DNA from: Candidatus Doudnabacteria bacterium RIFCSPHIGHO2_01_48_18
GTDB taxonomy: Bacteria > Patescibacteriota > Doudnabacteria > UBA920 > 2-01-FULL-46-14
DNA length: 33,371 bases
Assembly: GCA_001777515.1 (NCBI GenBank)
Contig: MFEF01000011.1
Coordinates: 1,803 to 35,173 of the forward strand
Direction: 5' to 3'
Shown: piece by piece, positions 2,701 to 23,191 of the stretch
How positions within the stretch are numbered: position 1 is the stretch's first letter
How the letters are laid out: every line of letters starts with the position of its first letter
Program-made: the position numbers and the translations under genes
The notes under the pieces: generated by a model
Seen by the model: only the letters and a program-made list of their open reading frames with translations
Database searches by the model: none
Told to the model about the DNA's origin: nothing

Positions 2701-3312
2701 ATGAAAACAATCAGGCTTTATAAAATGAGTAATAAAAATGTAAAACAATTTGGGTTTACCCCCACACCTGTTTCTTCTAAAACAGGTGTGGGCTCCGCCA
2801 AGGCGGAGCGGGGGTTTACCCTCATCGAACTTCTCGTGGTCATTTCCGTGATCGGGCTCTTGGCGAGCGTGGTTTTGATTTCGCTCAACAGCGCACGTAG
2901 CAAAGCGCGAGACGCGAAAAGGAAAGCTGATCTCAGACAAATCCTGACAGGGATTGATCTGTATGTTAATGACAATGGGGTGCCGATTGGCACAGGCGTC
3001 GGCTGGTGGGCACAGATCACCAACACTTGTGCTGGGTGGGGCCAGATTTATAATAATTTAACCAACTATATGACTAAGGTTCCTGATGACCCAAATAGTA
3101 CTGGGCCAGCGACCGTTTGTTCGGGCGCAGATGGTTGGTGGTATTATTTCGGTGATGGTTACATGTTCAACGGCACTTCGGTAGTGTATGCTGCTGATCG
3201 TGCTCACTACGTGCTTTGCAGCAAGCTGGAAAACAGCAGTGATAGAGACTATAAAGTTATCGCTAATCCTTGGAGCGGGGCTTGGGTATTGAATTATTGT
3301 ATAGGTTACTAG
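2701..3312 (+). CDS. Type IV prepilin-like protein with hairpin leader insertion
   Basis: The product is 203 residues (or 194 from the ATG at 2728). The leader contains a first G-F-T-P, a hairpin-encoded stretch, then R-G|F-T-L-I-E-L and the standard helix and A-K-R-K-A-D-L-R-Q segment. The C-terminal domain is Trp- and Tyr-rich with three Cys and the pseudopilin P-D-D-P-N motif. It starts immediately at the stop of the preceding pilin. Its 5' coding DNA is close to that of the other pilins while the C-terminal half is unrelated, the pattern expected for an exchangeable pilin repertoire. Confidence 0.85.
   Translation: MKTIRLYKMSNKNVKQFGFTPTPVSSKTGVGSAKAERGFTLIELLVVISVIGLLASVVLISLNSARSKARDAKRKADLRQILTGIDLYVNDNGVPIGTGVGWWAQITNTCAGWGQIYNNLTNYMTKVPDDPNSTGPATVCSGADGWWYYFGDGYMFNGTSVVYAADRAHYVLCSKLENSSDRDYKVIANPWSGAWVLNYCIGY
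2755..2820 (+). repeat. Palindromic leader element with two nested hairpins
   Basis: TTTACC occurs at both ends (2755-2760, 2815-2820). Inside, 2761-2773 pairs perfectly with 2780-2792, and CTCCGCC (2793-2799) pairs with GGCGGAG (2802-2808). ACCCCC at 2758-2763 could alternatively pair with GGGGGT at 2810-2815. Different sequence but same position and symmetry as the other pilin leader elements. Confidence 0.75.
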
Positions 3313-4524: not shown

Positions 4525-5049
4525 TTGACAAAAATACAAGCATCCAAAGTCAAATATAAAACAGGCTTCACATTGATCGAACTCCTTCTTTATCTGGCTT
4601 TGTCTGCCGCGATTCTTTTGGCGGTTTCGGTTTTCTTGTCGATATTGCTCCGTTCGCGGATAAAAAATCAAACAGTGGCCGAAGTAGAACAGCAGGGGAT
4701 TGCTGTTATGAACCATCTTACCGCCGCGATCAGAAGCGCGGAGAACATCAATGAGCCAGCTCTAGGCTTGAGCGCCGGCAGCTTGTCTCTCGATGCTTTT
4801 GGCAGCACCAATGACCCGGCTGTGTTCGCGGTAAGCGGTTCGGCGATAACAGTCACCGAAGGGAGCGGCTCGAGTCAAAACCTAACTTCTTCCAGGGTCA
4901 CCGTTTCCGGGGTCAGCTTTCAAAATTTATCGCGGTCCGGAACGCCGGGTATTGTTCGGGCTCAATTTACCCTGACCTATCTGAATCCGACCGGGAAAAA
5001 CGAATATGAATATTCGAAAACTTTTTATGCCTCAGCCAGTCTTCGGTAA
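4525..5049 (+). CDS. Minor pilin, PilW/GspJ-like
   Basis: The product is 174 residues with leader K-T-G|F-T-L-I-E-L-L-L-Y-L-A-L-S, where the L-Y-L-A hydrophobic start is characteristic of PilW/GspJ-type minor pseudopilins. A mostly beta, Ser/Gly-rich domain follows, ending in a long strand region (F-T-L-T-Y-L-N-P). The only fitting start is TTG at 4525. It is followed by a PilX-like gene in overlapping frame, and W-X order is typical of type IV pilus minor pilin operons, which prime pilus assembly. Confidence 0.72.
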   Translation: MTKIQASKVKYKTGFTLIELLLYLALSAAILLAVSVFLSILLRSRIKNQTVAEVEQQGIAVMNHLTAAIRSAENINEPALGLSAGSLSLDAFGSTNDPAVFAVSGSAITVTEGSGSSQNLTSSRVTVSGVSFQNLSRSGTPGIVRAQFTLTYLNPTGKNEYEYSKTFYASASLR

Positions 5050-5434
5050 GCAAAAAGGTTATATAGTTTTGATCAGCGTTCTCCTTGTGAGCGCGATTGG
5101 CGCGGCGATTTCGATTGCCGTGATTTTACTGGGTTTAGGCAGCTCGCGCAGCAGTTTTGCGGTTCAGCAATCGCGACAGGCGGCTAGCGCGGCTAATGCC
5201 TGCGTGGAAGAAGCGCTGCAGCAGATCAGGGAGAACAGCAATTTTAGCGGGAACGATACTCTAACTGTCGGGCAGGGCAGCTGCTCTTACGCAGTAGCCA
5301 GCCTTGGCGGGCAAAGCCGCTACATTGCTGCCTCAGGAACAGCCGGTACGATTGTTCGAAAATCGCGCGTTAATATTGACGCTATAACTCCGATAATCAA
5401 TGTCGTTTCCTGGGAAGAAGTTGCGGATTTTTAG
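5027..5434 (+). CDS. Minor pilin, PilX-like
   Basis: A short leader ends K-Q-K-G|Y-I-V-L-I-S-V-L-L, followed by a long hydrophobic helix (about residues 13-38) and then A-A-N-A-C-V-E-E-A-L, as in PilX-type minor pilins, where an A-x-x-C-x-E-E-A-L segment and a later Cys are usual. There is no Glu at +5, which is also common in PilX relatives. The ATG at 5027 gives a 23-base overlap with the previous gene; an ATG at 5006 is possible. It probably works with the preceding PilW-like protein at the pilus tip. Confidence 0.68.
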   Translation: MPQPVFGKQKGYIVLISVLLVSAIGAAISIAVILLGLGSSRSSFAVQQSRQAASAANACVEEALQQIRENSNFSGNDTLTVGQGSCSYAVASLGGQSRYIAASGTAGTIVRKSRVNIDAITPIINVVSWEEVADF

Positions 5435-5523
5435 ATTTGTGTCATAATGAACAGCAAACGGGTTCAGATCCGAAATAAACAGCAAATCAATAATAATTAA
5501 AAATAATAATTAAAGGAGCAAAA

Positions 5524-6048
5524 ATGATAAACACAAAAGCTAAAGGATTTACCCCGCACCTTTTCCACATGTTGTGGGGTAAGAGTGGAAATTTGGCAGC
5601 ACAAAGCTCAATACCAAGAAAAGGTGCGGGGTTTACTTTGCTGGAAATTCTGTTAGTGGTGGCAGCCATTGGAATTTTGGCTGGTATCGTTATCGTTGCG
5701 ATCAACCCCGGTAAACAACTCGGGGATACCCGCAACTCCCAGCGCAGGGTCGACGTCAACACTATTCTTAACGCGGTTTACCAGTATTCGCTGGATAATA
5801 GCGGCACATTGCCAGCGAGCATTACCACGACTGCAACCGAAATTTGCCGGACGGGCGGGACGTGCACTGGTCTCGTGGATCTCGGCGTTCTGACCGCTAG
5901 CGAAAAATATTTGACCGCGATGCCGGTTGATCCGCAGGAGACTGACGCCAACTCGACTGGTTACCGCATCATAAAAACCGCGAACAATCGCATCACCGTT
6001 GATGCTCCTGGCGCCGAACAAAGCGCGACCATTTCAGTGACTCGATAG
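5524..6048 (+). CDS. Type IV pilin, possibly the major subunit of the locus
   Basis: It has the strongest translation start of the pilin group, AGGAG at 5514-5518 spaced 5 bases from the ATG, unlike the other pilins here. The mature start is [20 protein letters not shown], then I-N-P-G-K-Q and [19 protein letters not shown], a segment shared by CPR major-pilin-like proteins. A Cys pair (C-R-T-G-G-T-C) and M-P-V-D-P follow. The leader is lengthened by a palindromic insertion and reads G-F-T-P-H before the true processing site. Calling it the major pilin is inference from the ribosome binding site. Confidence 0.8.
5548..5636 (+). repeat. Palindromic leader element in pilin gene (perfect 14-base arms)
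   Basis: The left arm 5551-5564 and right arm 5619-5632 are perfectly complementary. TTTAC occurs at both boundaries (5548-5552, 5632-5636). The insertion keeps the reading frame and adds about 28 residues between two copies of the G-F-T codons. Confidence 0.8.
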
Positions 6049-6090
6049 GAAAAACAAGAAACCGAGACAAAATAAATACCGCTATCTTTG

Positions 6091-7602
6091 ATGCGCTCGA
6101 AAAAAACCACATCGGGAGCCGGCTATATTAACGCAGAAGGCAAACTCTTTTTATGTGGTCTTTTTCTGCTGGCATTGCTGATAGGTTATTTTATCCTGCC
6201 GGTACAATCGCTGCGGGTGACTGTAATAGTGGCCTTATTTTTGGTCAGCACCGCGCTGTTATATGCGGCAGACCAGGCACTCAGGTCTTATAAACTGCGC
6301 GACCAGGAATATAGCAAGCTAAAGTGGGATATGGAATACGCGATAAAAACCGCCAAAGAAAGGCAGTTCATGCTCGCCACCAAGATCAAGGAACTTGAGG
6401 ATTCAAAAACAGCGACACTCAAGATTATACACGACCTGCAGCTTGCCAAAGAGCACGCTGAAGAAGAAAAATCCAAGGATGAAGCGATGCTTTCCAGCCT
6501 CGGGGAAGGGCTTATCGTGACGGACAAGCTTGGAAAAATCCAGCTTGTGAATAAAGTTTTTGAGGATCTGCTGGAATGGAAACCGCGCGAGGTGGTCGGC
6601 AAGCATATTCTCGCAGTGATACCGATACAGGACGAAAAGGGGAAATTGGTTTCGCTAGAAAGGTCGTTTGCCTCTGTTTTAGAAAAAGGAAAAAAAATAA
6701 CTACAGGACCTGAAACGTCGTACTTTTACGTCAAAAAAAATAAAGCTCGTTTTCCAGTCGCGATTACCATAACCCCGATCATAATTGGCAAAAAAATTGT
6801 GGGAGCGGTTCAGGTATTTCGAGATATCACGCGGGAAAAAGAAATTGATCAAGCGAAAAGCGAATTTGTGTCGCTGGCCAGCCATCAGCTGCGGACGCCG
6901 CTTTCTACCGTTAACTGGTACACGGAGATGCTGATCGACGAGGACGCGGGTAAAATCAGCAACGAGCAGAAGCAGTATCTGAAGGAAATCTATCACGCAA
7001 ACCGGCGCATGGTAGATTTGGTGAACGCGTTTTTGAATGTTTCCCGGATTGAACTCGGAACCTTTTCGGTGGAGCCTGAACCTTCAAGCGTAGTAAAAAT
7101 CGCGAAAAGCGTAGTTGCGGAGCTCAAACCTCTGATCAGCCAAAAGCGCTTGAAAATGGTGGAAAAATACGAAAAAAATATTCCAGTCATCCAGGCTGAT
7201 CCAAAATTGGTGAGAATCATCTGTCAAAATCTCCTGACAAATGCGGTGAAATACACGCCTACTGGCGGCCGTATCGAGATTGAAATTTCCCTTAATCAGA
7301 AGTCTCTGGTGTATAATGAAAATAAGCCCGAAAGCTATATTCGCTTAAAGGTCAGCGACAATGGATATGGCATTCCGCAAAGCGAGCAGGCGAATATATT
7401 CACCAAGCTATACCGCGCCGACAACGTCAAAGAAAAGGATACGGAAGGCACCGGCCTGGGCCTCTATATAGCCAAATCAGTGCTTGATCGCGTGGGCGGG
7501 ATGATCTGGTTTGAGTCTGGGGAAAATAAGGGCACCAGCTTTTATGTAGCGATTCCCATAATCGGGATGAAAGAAAAAAAAGGTAACAAAAAATTGGAAT
7601 GA
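6091..7602 (+). CDS. Membrane sensor histidine kinase with PAS domain
   Basis: Two transmembrane helices (about residues 18-38 and 42-60) are followed by a coiled coil (about 65-125), a PAS domain (about 125-255: L-G-E-G-L-I-V-T-D through F-R-D-I-T-R-E-K) and a HisKA domain with the phosphoacceptor His265 in S-H-Q-L-R-T-P-L. The HATPase domain has the N box N-L-L-T-N-A-V-K-Y-T, G1 D-N-G-Y-G-I-P and G2 G-T-G-L-G-L. All key residues are present. ATG 6091 is preferred over TTG 6088. It overlaps the response regulator by 4 bases and follows the pilin array by about 40 bases, so control of pili or surface genes is plausible but unproven. Confidence 0.92.
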   Translation: MRSKKTTSGAGYINAEGKLFLCGLFLLALLIGYFILPVQSLRVTVIVALFLVSTALLYAADQALRSYKLRDQEYSKLKWDMEYAIKTAKERQFMLATKIKELEDSKTATLKIIHDLQLAKEHAEEEKSKDEAMLSSLGEGLIVTDKLGKIQLVNKVFEDLLEWKPREVVGKHILAVIPIQDEKGKLVSLERSFASVLEKGKKITTGPETSYFYVKKNKARFPVAITITPIIIGKKIVGAVQVFRDITREKEIDQAKSEFVSLASHQLRTPLSTVNWYTEMLIDEDAGKISNEQKQYLKEIYHANRRMVDLVNAFLNVSRIELGTFSVEPEPSSVVKIAKSVVAELKPLISQKRLKMVEKYEKNIPVIQADPKLVRIICQNLLTNAVKYTPTGGRIEIEISLNQKSLVYNENKPESYIRLKVSDNGYGIPQSEQANIFTKLYRADNVKEKDTEGTGLGLYIAKSVLDRVGGMIWFESGENKGTSFYVAIPIIGMKEKKGNKKLE

Positions 7603-7997
7603 AAGACCAAAAAAAATATATAGCACTCGTGGTGGAAGACGAACCGCCGCTTGCTTACGCGATCAAAACTAAGCTAGAAAAAATGGGGTTTGACGCCGTA
7701 ACCACCAGGACCGTAGAGCAGGCTTCTGCCTACATGGAAGATATCGGCGGTTTTGATTTTGTTTGGCTCGATCATTATCTCATCGGGCAGCAAACAGGTT
7801 TAGATTTTGTTGAAAAACTAAAAGCGAGCGGCAAATGGAAGGATATTCCGATTTTTGTGGTTTCAAACACCGCCAGTTCGCAAAGAGTTCAGTCCTATCT
7901 CGATCTCGGTGTCACCAAATATTACACTAAATCAAATTTCCGTTTAGATGCGATCATCGACGATATTCGCAAATATCTAGAAGACCACGAGAAATAA
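7599..7997 (+). CDS. Single-domain response regulator (receiver only)
   Basis: The 132-residue receiver domain has acidic residues E13/D14, phosphoacceptor D58 in V-W-L-D-H-Y, S89 in the T/S position and K111 in Y-Y-T-K-S. No DNA-binding output domain follows. It is coupled to the upstream kinase by an ATGA overlap and is its likely partner. Output must be by protein contact (CheY/Spo0F-like), for example on motility or pilus machinery, or by relay to another protein. Confidence 0.9.
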   Translation: MKDQKKYIALVVEDEPPLAYAIKTKLEKMGFDAVTTRTVEQASAYMEDIGGFDFVWLDHYLIGQQTGLDFVEKLKASGKWKDIPIFVVSNTASSQRVQSYLDLGVTKYYTKSNFRLDAIIDDIRKYLEDHEK

Positions 7998-8001
7998 AAG
8001 C

Positions 8002-10188
8002 ATGAGGAAAATCCGAATCTTGCTATGGCCTGCTGCGGTGGCGGCGTTTTTCGTGCCTTCTATTGTTTATGGCGCGGACCATTTGGTTATCTCACAAATC
8101 CAAATCACTGGCGGTCCAGGAAAAACCACGGAAGATTTTGTGGAAATAAAAAACCCGACAGAAACAGATATTGATCTGAACGGCAAAAGGCTTGTAAAGA
8201 GAACAAAAACCGGAACTACAGACACACTCATTAAATCCTGGACAAGCGCAACAATCATCAAAGCCCACAGTTACTATCTGTGGGCCAATTCGTCCTATGC
8301 CGGCATCGCAATGCCTCCTGACGTCGCGACTACTGGCACGCTTGCGGAAGATAACGGGATTGCCCTTCGAGAAGGCCAGAATGACGTTGGTGTGATTATT
8401 GATAGCGTAGCCTGGGGGGAGGCGGCTAATATTTTTGTGGAGTCTGCTCCTTTCGCGACTAACCCTGCCGCCAATCAAAGCCTAGAACGAATTGCGGACA
8501 CGGATAACAATTTTATGGATTTTACGCTACAGAGCATATCGCATCCCAGAAACTCTTTTTACGTTGATACGGAGATGCCGGCGCAACCGTCTCCCGCCGT
8601 GACAAAAACTCCCAGCTCTACTCCAGAGGTTGGTTCTGAGGCAACCGTCGAGCTTTCTGAAATCATGGCAAATCCGAGGGGAAGCGATCAGGGCAACGAA
8701 TGGATTGAGTTCTATAACCCAGGCCATAGCGCAGTTGATTTGAGCGGATGGATACTCGATGATGACATGATACAAAATAGCCCTTCCAAAAATTCATTCG
8801 TTATTCCTGGGCCAGCGCCAGTGGCACCGGGCAACTATTTGGCTATAAAAATACCAAAGGGCAGATTTTCTTTAAATAATTCAGGATCCGAATCTGTGTA
8901 CGTTTTTGACAGCGCAAAAGTCCTGAATCAAAGCTTGCATTATCAAGGTCCGGCCAAAGACGGCTATGCTTATGCTCTTTCCGAATCCAGACTTTGGCAG
9001 TGGACTGAAACTTCGACCCCAGACAAGAAGAACATCATTGCTGCTGAAATTATTTACGCTAAAACTATTGCCATTTCCGAGATTGTTCCCAATCCGGATG
9101 GGGATGATGAAGAAGGCGAATTCATAGAGCTTTACAATTTTGGCGCCGATGCCGTTGATCTGACTGATTGGTCGCTCTCGGACAAAACGAGAAAATATAT
9201 CATCAGCGACGATGAAGTTTTAGATACAGAAATTCCAAGTGGCGGCTATTTTCTTGTTTATCGAGATACCAGCGGAATTAGCCTTAACAATACTGGAGAG
9301 GAAAAGATCAGTCTTTTTGATCCAACAGGAACGCTTGTCGATAGTGTCACATTTACGGCAAAAGACAACGAATCTTTTGCGCGTACTTCTGACGACAAAT
9401 ACGAATGGACTCCCGTGATCACTCCTGGTGCGACAAACTCATTTGCGGAGATGCAGAACGGTAAAAAAACGGTTCTGTCCGAACCGAAAACGGAAAATAC
9501 TGCAGTTGAATCAATACAATTGGACGAGGTCCGACAATTACCACTGGAGACTTTGATTAAAAGTTCTGGAATAGTGAGCGCGCCGCCCGGCATTTTTGAT
9601 CCAGGAGTTTTTTACCTTCAAGGAAGCGGCATCAGAATAACATTGGAAAGTGAGCTTCCTATGCAACTGAGGTTGGGTGATGAGGTTGAATTTGAAGGTT
9701 ATTTGCGGCAAGCGTACAGAGAGCTGCAAATCAGGGTAGAAAATTTGTCATCTCTCAAAGTAATAGATACAGATAATCAAGTTTCAGTGCATAGTATCAA
9801 AACGGCAGAAGTGGGAGAAGATTTTGAAGGATATTTGGTGCAGATCTCAGGCAGCATTACTGACAACCAAGGCAATGCGTTCTTTGTTGATGACGGCAGC
9901 GGAACAGCCCGGGTGCTGATTTTGGAAACTTCGGGCGTAGAAAAACCAGAACTCTTCAAAAAAGGGGAGCGGGTTACGGTTACAGGCATAGTCTCGCAGT
10001 ACAATGACAACTACCGGGTTTTACCGCGGTTTCAATCTGACCTTCATCTCGAAAGCAAAGAAGAAATTGCGGGAATACAAAGTTTGCCTCGCACTGGGTC
10101 AGAATTTTGGCTTATTCTTGCGACTGTAGCAGGAATTTGTTATATTTATTGGGTTAATTTCCAACTTAACCCTAGAAAGGAAATTTAA
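8002..10188 (+). CDS. Secreted lamin-tail-domain / OB-fold protein with LPRTG sorting signal
   Basis: A signal peptide (residues 1 to about 24, ending V-Y-G-A) precedes three lamin-tail domains: about 27-190, 214-345 (V-E-L-S-E-I-M-A-N-P, N-E-W-I-E-F-Y-N-P) and 357-470 (I-A-I-S-E-I-V-P-N-P, G-E-F-I-E-L-Y-N). Two OB-fold-like segments follow (about 510-600 and 605-685; G-S-G-I-R-I-T-L and D-D-G-S-G-T-A-R-V motifs). The C-terminus has L-P-R-T-G (695-699), a hydrophobic stretch and a short tail with R-K. The C-terminus resembles a sortase substrate and would anchor the protein at the cell surface; no sortase is in the window. Bacterial lamin-tail domains are often linked to extracellular nucleases or hydrolases, but no catalytic domain is visible here. 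Confidence 0.82.
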   Translation: MRKIRILLWPAAVAAFFVPSIVYGADHLVISQIQITGGPGKTTEDFVEIKNPTETDIDLNGKRLVKRTKTGTTDTLIKSWTSATIIKAHSYYLWANSSYAGIAMPPDVATTGTLAEDNGIALREGQNDVGVIIDSVAWGEAANIFVESAPFATNPAANQSLERIADTDNNFMDFTLQSISHPRNSFYVDTEMPAQPSPAVTKTPSSTPEVGSEATVELSEIMANPRGSDQGNEWIEFYNPGHSAVDLSGWILDDDMIQNSPSKNSFVIPGPAPVAPGNYLAIKIPKGRFSLNNSGSESVYVFDSAKVLNQSLHYQGPAKDGYAYALSESRLWQWTETSTPDKKNIIAAEIIYAKTIAISEIVPNPDGDDEEGEFIELYNFGADAVDLTDWSLSDKTRKYIISDDEVLDTEIPSGGYFLVYRDTSGISLNNTGEEKISLFDPTGTLVDSVTFTAKDNESFARTSDDKYEWTPVITPGATNSFAEMQNGKKTVLSEPKTENTAVESIQLDEVRQLPLETLIKSSGIVSAPPGIFDPGVFYLQGSGIRITLESELPMQLRLGDEVEFEGYLRQAYRELQIRVENLSSLKVIDTDNQVSVHSIKTAEVGEDFEGYLVQISGSITDNQGNAFFVDDGSGTARVLILETSGVEKPELFKKGERVTVTGIVSQYNDNYRVLPRFQSDLHLESKEEIAGIQSLPRTGSEFWLILATVAGICYIYWVNFQLNPRKEI

Positions 10189-20457: not shown

Positions 20458-21339
20458 ATGGCTAAATACAGCCATTGGAGAGACGGACAGCACGAAGCCC
20501 TGATTAATATTTTGGGCGAAGATAATGCTTTGGCGCTTTTGCGTGGTGAGAAAGCCGTTAGTTTTCAGGATGTAAAACTTTTACATTTTGACAGTAACGG
20601 CCGGTGCATTCCTCGCAATCTGACGAATAAAGTCTGTGATCCGAATACGGATTTTCATCTCGTTCAGCCCAAGCTTGACTATGGCGTGCGTCTGGCGCGC
20701 ATCGGTGAATGTCTGCATGCCGGCCTCATGATTTCGGCCGCAGAGTTTGAGGATCGCTGTCAGAAACTTCTGGAGCGTCTCGGCAAAGACGAGCTGTGTG
20801 GCAACATCGTCAAAGCAGTTCATCTGCCGATCTGCATCCCGCAGACGCAGGTTACTGACTATGGCGAAGCGCTCAATCCCTTCTTGCTTGGCGTTGACTG
20901 TTCCTATCCGCAAGAGTTTTCAGGGCGGACGTTCAACAATTACCGCGAAGACGATCTGGCTAAGAAGGTAAAGATCGTTCCTGGAATCCGCCACGATGCC
21001 CTTGTGGAAAAACTGGCCGGAGGACATGCGGTCGGAGTTTATTTCCCGAATCCGATGCAGGGATTTTCAGTTCTGGCCCAGCGCGAGCAGATTGAAGTTC
21101 TGCCGCCGTGGTTCTGGCTCTCGGGCGGGTTCGATGCAGTGACGGCGATGGTTGCTTACCCCGATGTTCTTGCCCGTGATTGGAGCACGCCGGGCTTGGA
21201 CTTTTCTGCATTACAGTGGCAGGGCGCTCGGGGCTCGCTGTACTTCAAGGCCAATGACGCGGAGCTGAAGTTCGACCGCGGGGGCAATCTCGGCGGTGCC
21301 GACGACTACTATTCTGGCGGTCTGTTCGTCCTCGGGTAG
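20458..21339 (+). CDS. DGR target protein with C-terminal variable region
   Basis: The 293-residue protein starts at ATG 20458 after a GGAGG ribosome site. No signal peptide or membrane helix is seen. The N-terminal 240 residues are a folded domain that I do not recognise, with features such as D-Y-G-V-R-L-A-R and W-F-W-L-S-G-G-F-D-A. The last 40 codons (residues 254-293) are the variable repeat. They end in G-G-L-F-V-L-G, like known DGR targets, whose C-terminal domains are often C-type-lectin-like. Nine residues differ from the template: G256, G259, Y262, A268, R274, G275, G280, D282 and Y284. Target proteins use this region to bind ligands. Without an export signal, the ligand could be intracellular, or export uses an unrecognised route. 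Confidence 0.85.
   Translation: MAKYSHWRDGQHEALINILGEDNALALLRGEKAVSFQDVKLLHFDSNGRCIPRNLTNKVCDPNTDFHLVQPKLDYGVRLARIGECLHAGLMISAAEFEDRCQKLLERLGKDELCGNIVKAVHLPICIPQTQVTDYGEALNPFLLGVDCSYPQEFSGRTFNNYREDDLAKKVKIVPGIRHDALVEKLAGGHAVGVYFPNPMQGFSVLAQREQIEVLPPWFWLSGGFDAVTAMVAYPDVLARDWSTPGLDFSALQWQGARGSLYFKANDAELKFDRGGNLGGADDYYSGGLFVLG
21217..21335 (+). repeat. DGR variable repeat (VR)
   Basis: These 119 bases align without gaps to 21665-21783. I count 15 differences: 12 at positions where the template has A (7 to G or more, the rest to C or T) and 3 at other bases (21232, 21238, and the third base of codon 268). Most changes fall in AAC, AAT, AAG or GAC template codons. The last 26 bases (21310-21335) match the template exactly, as expected for the initiation-of-mutagenic-homing end. 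Confidence 0.93.
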
Positions 21340-21351
21340 TGCTGGTCTTTG

Positions 21352-21425
21352 GGCTTGGGAATTTTGATTTTGGATCTTGACCTCTTGGTCTTTGATTTCA
21401 AAATCAGACTCCCAAGCCTTTTTGT
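21352..21425 (+). terminator. Long hairpin after VR; terminator and possible DGR hairpin
   Basis: GGCTTGGGA (21352-21360) pairs with TCCCAAGCC (21410-21418), with further pairing of TGATTTT with AAAATCA inside and a small inner GACC/GGTC hairpin. A T-rich run follows, so it is a good intrinsic terminator. In studied DGRs a hairpin just downstream of the VR promotes retrohoming; this hairpin starts 17 bases after the VR and could have both roles. Confidence 0.75.
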
Positions 21426-21437
21426 TTTGCCAATTTT

Positions 21438-21446
21438 TGTTATGAT
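21438..21446 (+). promoter_or_regulatory. Candidate promoter for template RNA and reverse transcriptase
   Basis: TGT-TATGAT (extended -10 form) lies after the hairpin and before the template repeat. It would give an RNA beginning near 21453 and running through the TR towards the reverse transcriptase on the + strand, the direction required by the A-specific changes. No good -35 was found. Confidence 0.4.
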
Positions 21447-21468
21447 AAGCTTGAGATTAGGTTAATGC

Positions 21469-21547
21469 ATTTTGAATTAAGGTTCAAAATCACCGAAATC
21501 CGGAAAATCAAACCATGCCAGAATTGCCTTGATCATGGTTAAGGCAA
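21469..21547 (+). ncRNA. Structured leader of the template-repeat RNA (putative)
   Basis: Three inverted repeats lie between the hairpin and TR: ATTTTGAA/TTCAAAAT (21469-21476 with 21483-21490), AACCATG/CATGGTT (21511-21517 with 21534-21540) and TTGCCTT/AAGGCAA (21524-21530 with 21541-21547). The last two overlap in order, so they are alternatives or a tight pseudoknot. DGR template RNAs are known to need structured flanks for reverse transcription; the role here is inferred. Confidence 0.4.
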
Positions 21548-21664
21548 GCGGTGCATAAGTTTTCTAGACACTACTTATTCTTTTCTTGCGCTCATCAGAG
21601 CCAAATTAAATTCAGGAGAAGCAGTAATGCTTCTTCGGTGTCCGAATGGAAAAGAGTAATATTT

Positions 21665-21783
21665 TGGCAGGACGCTCGGTACTCGTTGAACTTCAAGGCC
21701 AATGACGACGAGCTGAAGTTCGACAACAAGGGCAATCTCGGCAATGCCAACGACAACTATTCTGGCGGTCTGTTCGTCCTCGG
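21665..21783 (+). repeat. DGR template repeat (TR)
   Basis: This is the template copy of the variable repeat. It contains 29 adenines, of which 12 are changed in the VR, against 3 changes at the 90 other positions. AAC codons are enriched at the variable sites, the arrangement that gives most amino acid variety without stops. A frame through it (21551-21793) is open, but it has no gene-like start and is just the template. It lies 7 bases from the end of the convergent avd gene and about 360 bases before the reverse transcriptase. Confidence 0.92.
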
Positions 21784-21789
21784 TTGCGT

Positions 21790-22140
21790 CTAGAACGAAG
21801 TCAGGGAGCGTTGCCATCCTCCAAGCATTCGCCCGATTTCCTGGATATGTGTTTGCAGCAGTAAATATTTCTTGTTATCCAGGATTTTCAGATCATGGGC
21901 GGCGCGGAGGAAAAATTTGAGAGCATCAAACTTTACATTGGCTTTTTTTAGTAATGCAAGTTTCTGCTCTTTTGGCGCGCTCCCTGCCTCGATCAGCAGT
22001 TCTATCGTAGCTATGATATACATTTCGCATTTGTTTCCTAGGGCATATTTATCCTTTTTTGGAAAGAGCTGCAGATACTGGTAATAGATTTTGTAGAGCT
22101 CATTTGTTTTGGCAATTATCGGAATCTCACCATCGTTCAT
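21790..22140 (-). CDS. avd: DGR accessory variability determinant (Avd-like helical bundle)
   Basis: The 116-residue protein has the Avd / four-helix-bundle pattern: I-P-I-I-A-K-T-N-E-L-Y-K-I-Y-Y, F-P-K-K-D-K-Y-A-L-G-N-K, a second and third helix with L-L-I-E-A and K-K-A-N-V-K-F-D-A-L-K-F-F-L-R, and the ending E-I-G-R-M-L-G-G-W. Avd forms a pentameric barrel that binds nucleic acid and the reverse transcriptase and is needed for mutagenic homing. Unusually, it is on the opposite strand to the TR and RT: its ATG is back to back with that of the RT (CATATG at 22138-22143) and its stop lies 7 bases from the TR end. It therefore needs its own promoter within the RT gene. Confidence 0.88.
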   Translation of the reverse strand: MNDGEIPIIAKTNELYKIYYQYLQLFPKKDKYALGNKCEMYIIATIELLIEAGSAPKEQKLALLKKANVKFDALKFFLRAAHDLKILDNKKYLLLQTHIQEIGRMLGGWQRSLTSF

Positions 22141-23191
22141 ATGTTTGAAAATTTAGTCAGTTTAGAAAATTTGTTTGCTTGCTGGCAGGAGTACCGAAAG
22201 GGCAAGAATGGAGAGCCTGATGTTCAGCGATTTGAACGGCATCTGGAAGATAATATTTTTGCGCTTCATGGAGAGCTCCGGGATCAAACCTATCGCCATA
22301 AACCTTACAGCACGTTTCATATTTATGATCCCAAGCATCGAGTGATAAGCAAGGCTACTGTCAGAGATCGGCTGGTGCATCATGCGGTTTTCAATGAGCT
22401 TTACAAACTATTCAACCCCGGGTTTATTTATCATTCGTATTCATCCAGACTGGAAAGAGGCACTCATTTGGCGGTTAATAATCTATCCAAATCCCTGCGC
22501 AAGGTCAGCAGAAATTATACTCGTCCCGTTTTTGCACTGAAGTGCGACATCAAAAAATTCTTTGCAAGTGTTTCTCATGGAAAACTTTTGCAGATTATCG
22601 AAAGCAAAATCCAAGATCGCCGGTTCTTGCAGCTGTTCAGAGAAATAGTTGGGAGTTTTAGTTCAACTGTGGATAACCACGAACAGAGAGAGAGAGAGAG
22701 AGCTTACCGGAATCCCCATCGGCAATCTAACCTCACAAATTTTTGCCAACATATATCTGAACGAATTAGATCAATTTGTAAAACACCGGCTTTGCGCCAA
22801 ACATTATTTTCGATACGCTGATGATTTTGTTATTGTTCACAGCGATAGTGGATATTTAGAAAAAATGAAAATCGAGATCGAGAGCTTTTTGAACAATGAA
22901 TTGGCTCTAGAATTGCATCCTGACAAGGTTGAGATTAGAAAATTTAGCCAAGGGATAGATTTTCTCGGATATGTTGTCTTGCCTTATCATATCGTGTTGA
23001 GAACTAAAACGAAACGGAGAATGTTCAAGAAGCTTTTTGCGAAACAAAAATCCCTTAACGAAGGACTTTTGGAGGCAGACAGTTATCATCAAAGCGTACA
23101 GTCATATTTGGGAATGCTGAAGCACTGCAATGCGCATGATATGGCAGACTCTATAAAGAACAATTTTTTAAACACCTCAACGTGGGCATGA
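22141..23191 (+). CDS. DGR reverse transcriptase, split by a frameshift in an AG repeat
   Basis: The first frame (22141-22821) has the DGR-type RT N-terminus: N-L-F-A-C-W, D-P-K-H-R-V-I, R-D-R-L-V-H-H-A and K-C-D-I-K-K-F-F, with catalytic D136. The second (+1) frame runs from the AG repeat to 23191 and carries G-I-P-I-G-N-L-T-S-Q-I-F-A-N-I-Y-L-N, the catalytic Y-A-D-D-F (22814-22828) and F-L-G-Y. As sequenced, translation stops at 22821 after 226 residues, without Y-A-D-D-F. The break coincides with (AG)9 at 22685-22702. Ten or seven AG units would restore one protein of 350 or 348 residues, a normal DGR RT length. Neither half can work alone. The ATG abuts that of avd, and the last bases overlap the convergent glycosyltransferase gene. 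Confidence 0.9.
22685..22702 (+). repeat. (AG)9 simple repeat inside the reverse transcriptase gene
   Basis: Nine AG dinucleotides lie exactly where the RT reading frame shifts, between RT motifs around the K-C-D-I block and G-I-P-I-G-N. Such tracts are hotspots for slipped-strand changes. The repeat reads R-E-R-E in both frames, so length changes by one unit alter only the frame and a few R/E residues. Confidence 0.92.

Follow-up and report, generated by a model that had tools for sequence, protein, structure and literature searches.

A dinucleotide tract as a putative phase-variation switch in the reverse transcriptase gene of a diversity-generating retroelement from Doudnabacteria

Introduction

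Avd is the partner protein that is required for retrohoming in diversity-generating retroelements (DGRs). The closest described relatives of the DGR analysed here are the BPP-1-type DGRs and the Patescibacteria-restricted RT clade 2 of Roux et al. 2021 (PMC8144416), with which it shares a reverse transcriptase (RT), Avd, a template repeat (TR), a variable repeat (VR) with adenine-specific differences, and the location of the VR at the 3' end of the target gene. It differs from the BPP-1-type DGRs in that its RT gene contains an internal microsatellite that breaks the reading frame. Another DGR with a divided RT gene is that of the phage Quimbyvirus, whose RT, as described by Benler et al. 2021 (PMC8008677), is spread over three overlapping frames, is accompanied by evidence of activity and is read as a case of programmed frameshifting. 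No repeat tract is mentioned in the passages that describe it, whereas the RT gene described here is interrupted by a length-variable microsatellite and its counterparts are found in cellular genomes.

Contingency loci based on simple sequence repeats (SSRs) form the second group of systems to which the locus can be compared. Poly-C and poly-G contingency tracts are known from Neisseria and Campylobacter. The most direct mechanistic precedent is the (AG)n tract in the type III mod gene of Mycoplasma mycoides, which switches between AG12 and AG10 (PMC3498834). Like the tracts described below, that tract lies within the coding sequence, its length determines the frame, both OFF frames occur, and it is retained in relatives. 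The difference is that the gene concerned here is a targeted mutator and not a surface protein or a methylase, and that the lengths reported here come from consensus assemblies.

Results

A complete DGR with an RT gene divided at an AG tract

The window, i.e. the whole stretch of 33,371 nucleotides analysed, is part of the assembly (919 kb, 33 contigs) of Candidatus Doudnabacteria bacterium RIFCSPHIGHO2_01_48_18. It contains a genuine and complete DGR at 20458-23191, consisting of a target gene with VR, a TR, a divergent avd gene and an RT gene (Table 1). Of the 119 sites compared between TR and VR, 15 are mismatched, 12 of them at TR adenines, as is characteristic of DGRs. In profile searches the avd product matched NF033474 (E 2.3e-26) and bAvd PF22296 (3e-20), and a search of the target protein with Pfam/NCBIfam profiles returned no domain. 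No repeat tract is present in this avd gene. The starts of avd and RT stand back to back (CATATG at 22138-22143); because this leaves no intergenic room, the promoter of each gene would be located inside the other one, unless a different start codon is used.

Table 1. Coordinates of the DGR features in the window
Feature	Position	Strand	Basis
DGR target gene, 293 aa, VR at 3' end	20458-21339	+	ORF, profile search
VR (variable repeat), 119 bp	21217-21335	+	15 mismatches against TR
TR (template repeat), 119 bp	21665-21783	+	repeat comparison with VR
avd (accessory variability determinant), divergent from RT, start codon abuts RT ATG	21790-22140	-	NF033474, PF22296
RT 5' part, 226 aa OFF product	22141-22821	+	ORF; motif 1 DIKKFF, D at 22546
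(AG)9 tract, proposed phase-variation switch	22685-22702	+	homologous place occupied in 61 other species
RT 3' part, +1 frame, thumb region included	22703-23191	+	GIPIGNLTSQ from 22709, YADDF from 22814

The first-pass annotation of this DNA had placed the break in the RT frame exactly at the AG repeat, and inspection of the sequence bears this out: the (AG)9 tract is the sole AG array in the window, and the RT is otherwise open. In the 5' ORF, which includes the catalytic block K-C-D-I-K-K-F-F, the RT frame is lost at the tract; a stop follows after about 39 out-of-frame residues, giving an OFF product that lacks YADD. The motifs that had been assigned to the downstream +1 frame (ORF 22649-23191), GIPIGNLTSQ and YADDF, are indeed located there, and the former corresponds to motif 4 of the DGR clade of RTs ([I/L/V]GNLTSQ, group II-like). 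Against the RVT_1 profile (205 positions), the 5' half aligns to 8-107 and the 3' half to 106-204, so that one match takes up where the other ends. Both halves are free of further damage, as the annotation had stated, and so are avd and the TR/VR pair. Its frame arithmetic also holds: with an offset of 508 (mod 3 = +1), 10 or 7 AG units restore one frame, of 350 or 348 aa respectively, and the allele as assembled is in the OFF state.

An AG tract recurs at one RT position across Patescibacteria and DPANN archaea

A scan of 84,980 species, each represented by one genome, for six AG units followed within 30 nt by GxPxGN yielded 62 loci, of which 61 are DGR-type RTs. The remaining match, in Dankookia (L039), has no YxDD and was discarded as a chance match. 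All 61 further tract RTs belong to Patescibacteria or DPANN archaea. The same AG pattern had no match in 2.9 million viral contigs, in which the DGR-type motif 4 is common (at least 120 matches); moreover, none of 80 viral DGR RTs contained a microsatellite inside the RT, and 72 of the 74 complete ones in this set were in frame. When the first RT half was used to query 191 related genomes, AG/GA tracts of 8-17 units again turned up at this place in other families.

Across the tract RTs the tract is between 13 and 71 nt long, and in nearly all loci it starts about 40-60 residues past the motif-1 Asp and directly before GxPxGN. Rarer tract places are found before motif 1 (AG18, AC10 and AG12). 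The TR is located upstream at a stereotyped distance, about 950 nt in bacteria and about 570 nt (from the tract) in archaea. In the tract-bearing DGRs of DPANN archaea (L047, L050-L053, L061, L074 and L091-L093) all candidate switch tracts are in the RT, and the profile used detected no avd in archaeal tract DGRs.

AG arrays of this kind are few. In 145 related genomes there are about 21 distinct sites with at least eight AG units, seven of them in DGR RTs and two at the N-terminus of avd; the remaining ones include sites in an HsdS-like subunit, a pilin and surface proteins. Genes of these three kinds are classical phase-variable genes. Within the 62 tract loci (454 kb) no other microsatellite was found except for four A/T runs. 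On a quick tree of 117 RTs the tract label changes 13 times, with 6 changes forced by well-supported branches, versus 39 for shuffled labels, a result that speaks to the clustering and retention of the tract and not to its frequency, since the tract loci were picked by pattern. The tract is kept, with mixed frames, in 10 of 10 members of the clade of the window, 20 of 22 members of a Paceibacteria-like clade and 9 of 9 members of an archaeal clade.

These data bear on the central proposal of the first-pass annotation, namely that the tract is a phase-variable switch. It had suggested comparing tract lengths in related genomes, and had named relatives with an in-frame RT and no repeat as evidence against its proposal. 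What is seen is the opposite: the presence of the tract at the same place in 61 further species, with variable lengths and frames and with retention in deep clades, supports a switch as far as genome comparison allows.

Reading frames, selection and traces of past activity

Among the 62 tract RTs, including the one in the window, 12 are in frame (ON) and 25 are in each of the two OFF frames, the frame call being less sure for one or two loci near contig ends. Without selection on the frame, one third of the alleles would be expected to be ON; the share observed, about 20-25%, does not exceed this. OFF products stop 0-45 residues past the tract. The tract genomes are metagenome-assembled genomes (MAGs) or similar consensus sequences, in which tracts of more than 30 nt may be mis-sized; of the 29 tracts of at most 18 nt, 24 or 25 are out of frame. 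RTs without a tract are in frame in essentially all cases in our first sample and in 55 of 56 cases in a fresh sample (described below). The sole out-of-frame tract-less RT of the fresh sample has an internal G10.

Two Wolfebacteria RTs (L032 and L046) share 92% amino acid identity and are both OFF, with tracts of 71 and 35 nt between similar flanks; they are the one close pair in which variation in length between close relatives was observed. The dN/dS values for the two RT halves in this pair, the only close OFF pair with a clearly unsaturated dS, are 0.108 and 0.085, and judged by these ratios the halves are under purifying selection even though both alleles are OFF. Thus, as in other contingency loci, a coding SSR sets the frame by its length, and natural alleles are of both the ON and the OFF kind in a gene that is conserved apart from the tract.

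A TR/VR pair could be identified in 44 of the 62 tract loci, most of the others being near the end of the available sequence stretch. Beside OFF RTs, 578 of 618 TR/VR mismatches are at adenines, and in 15 of 35 loci the differences are confined to adenines. Changes at other bases amount to 40 in 4053 bp beside OFF RTs versus 3 in 911 bp beside ON RTs, a difference that is not significant per locus (p=0.15). Because the mismatches are adenine-biased, the DGRs beside OFF RTs appear to have copied TR to VR recently on an evolutionary scale, and the A-specific differences imply past mutagenic retrohoming.

A second tract site at the start of avd

A second candidate switch site, in avd, had been overlooked in the first-pass annotation. 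In most DGRs that have no RT tract, the N-terminal stretch that separates the start codon of the divergent avd from the avd domain contains a poly-C (8-13), AG, AC or TC tract. Where the RT has no tract, 39 of 51 DGRs show one in avd; where it has one, 0 of 47 do (Fisher 7e-17). Since the idea of an avd site arose from this first sample, a fresh sample of 380 genomes of the phylum was drawn. It contained 62 DGRs with a divergent avd, of which 32 have an avd tract, 8 an RT tract, 22 neither and none both; the RT is in frame in 2 of the 8 RT-tract loci. RT and avd tracts are therefore mutually exclusive. DGRs with a divergent avd and no tract at either place account for 12 of 51 in the first sample and 22 of 62 in the fresh one, so that the putative switch would be common, not universal. 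SSRs number 44 in the 37 kb of the RT and avd places taken together, while the other 224 kb of these loci contain 6.

In 15 of the 63 loci that have a unique candidate ATG, this avd start codon is in frame with the domain. Of the avd cases, 19 of 42 and 10 of 30 have an in-frame ATG, GTG or TTG between the tract and the domain, and some avd OFF states may therefore be leaky. Control of promoter spacing by the avd tract was also considered and rejected, as in most cases start codons lie beyond the tract and an effect on translation is the simpler reading.

The genome of the window has a second DGR (L124, 4970-9141) with a candidate target at 4970-7063, an avd-like gene at 7129-7524 and an intact RT at 7873-9141 on the minus strand. 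Neither its RT nor its avd has a tract.

Predicted structure of the region that contains the tract

An AlphaFold2 model of an ON homologue (L075; mean pLDDT 92.6) places the Glu-Arg stretch encoded by the repeat in a loop of lower confidence (pLDDT about 75) that links a helix to motif 4. Among solved structures, the ON homologue is closest to the BPP-1 DGR RT, 8ub7 (TM 0.82; sequence E 1.8e-36), which has the same fold and a short loop at this place. Going by the model, a loop that tolerates differences in length suits an in-frame repeat. The loop in which the AG tract sits also takes up long, unrelated inserts in three other Patescibacterial RTs (L010, L013 and L030).

Other repeats

Several other repeats were noticed in the genomes analysed. 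In the genome of the window (L124), near-perfect inverted repeats (85 nt at 98%, plus 30 nt) at 3155-3262 and 4758-4867 flank about 1.5 kb with a cupredoxin/nitrite-reductase-like gene, and a (GA)9.5 array adjoins one arm; this unit is possibly an invertible, phase-variable element. An HsdS-like type I specificity subunit is divided into two halves by a (GA)12 array at L131 2805-2829, a likely case of phase-variable restriction in Patescibacteria. AG tracts are also present at the N-termini of a type IV pilin-like protein (L130, 1176-1199) and a large secreted surface protein (L127, 2829-2849), and an identical (AG)8 with its flanks is found upstream of genes in two genomes, G048 and G027 (L132, 238-253, and L133, 2729-2744).

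Discussion

By far the best reading of these data, to which we give a probability of about 0.86, is that the AG tract is a contingency locus inside a DGR, and that the mutator itself would be subject to phase variation by slipped-strand mispairing. Replication slippage would add or remove AG units. With lengths that keep the frame, the RT would be made in full, the repeat forming a flexible (Glu-Arg)n loop ahead of motif 4, and mutagenic copying from TR to VR would diversify the target (ON); other lengths would cut the RT short before YADD and freeze the current variant of the target (OFF). In sister DGRs, the tract at the avd N-terminus, a poly-C run or a dinucleotide repeat that follows the start codon and precedes the domain, would do the same job, with one switch per tract-bearing DGR. 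A population would then consist of a mutator minority seeking new target variants and a majority keeping working ones. We infer from the comparative data that slippage takes place in vivo, that the OFF state entails loss of RT function (no YADD) or of Avd function, and that the population benefits. The variety of repeat units and places, and the involvement of two genes of one reaction, would point to selection for switchability and not for a given sequence.

The main rival is that slippage of the ribosome or of RNA polymerase on the repeat provides a low, constant level of full-length RT at any tract length, the tract serving to limit that level. Classical recoding consists of a fixed shift at a conserved slippery site. 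The tract RTs show no such fixed shift: both shifts are equally frequent, and as each wrong frame occurs in 25 loci, programmed frameshifting with a fixed offset is disfavoured. Purifying selection on the RT halves and the A-specific VR changes beside OFF RTs would also fit leaky expression, and Benler et al. 2021 (PMC8008677) infer programmed frameshifts for a phage DGR RT in three frames that is apparently active. Nevertheless, the occurrence of all three frames and of lengths of 13-71 nt argues against recoding as the sole explanation, and unrelated kinds of tract (AG, AC, poly-C/G) together with the site at the avd N-terminus, at which tract length decides if the start codon is in frame, fit slippage of DNA better. 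We therefore regard recoding as unlikely in place of a switch, but it may coexist with one, and slippage of RNA or ribosome on the repeat could yield some full-length RT in the OFF state.

A neutral microsatellite, accrued without benefit because the loop before motif 4 accepts any insert, would be in line with the lower pLDDT of that loop and with its unrelated long inserts in three other RTs. This explanation is very unlikely, since in a gene with a dN/dS of about 0.1 the frame breaks seen in the majority of tract alleles are not neutrally tolerable, and since it leads one to expect neither the retention in deep clades, nor the exclusivity with avd tracts, nor 80 viral RTs without an internal tract. 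It is also conceivable that the true gene is always in frame and that the tract was misread in sequencing or assembly, because most genomes are MAGs and dinucleotide repeats stutter in PCR. But (AG)9 is just 18 nt long, short and easily assembled tracts are mostly out of frame, unbiased error would not spoil 80% of consensus alleles, and the repeat, its place and the avd exclusivity would be left unexplained, making an error of this kind highly improbable. The truncation of the RT in the assembly could finally signify a dead DGR, whether a fresh or a permanent pseudogene. This we consider barely credible: the RT halves, avd and TR/VR carry no other damage, the Wolfebacteria pair is under purifying selection while OFF, and 50 of 62 independent species are likewise OFF, with A-specific VR changes where TR and VR were found.

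DGRs and SSR-based phase variation are each well known. The first-pass annotation knew of no established repeat switch in a DGR RT, and the open-access literature gave no precedent for it either; subscription papers (e.g. Paul et al. 2017) may mention one. The combination thus appears to be new in the open-access literature. The pipeline of Roux et al. 2021 (PMC8144416) accepted RTs of 250-550 aa only, which leaves out most OFF alleles with their halves of about 140-240 aa. Many elements escape DGR surveys that demand an intact RT.

Roux et al. 2021 (PMC8144416) reported slower turnover of targets in cellular DGRs, the Patescibacteria clade included, and left undecided whether tighter control of the RT or stronger selection is responsible, and a 2026 study (PMC12875486) names DGR regulation in the wild as a frontier. 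A heritable stochastic switch acting on RT or avd would answer the question of how DGRs are controlled, and such a switch is directly testable, because metagenome reads that already exist allow the tract lengths to be counted. As judged from the genomes compared, Patescibacteria and DPANN archaea quite probably use phase variation of the mutator as a general means of control that has evolved repeatedly: most of these DGRs would have one microsatellite switch, in RT or in avd, turning hypermutation on and off stochastically. Slippage and adenine-directed mutagenesis, two systems of localized hypermutation, would then be coupled in very small genomes that have few regulators.
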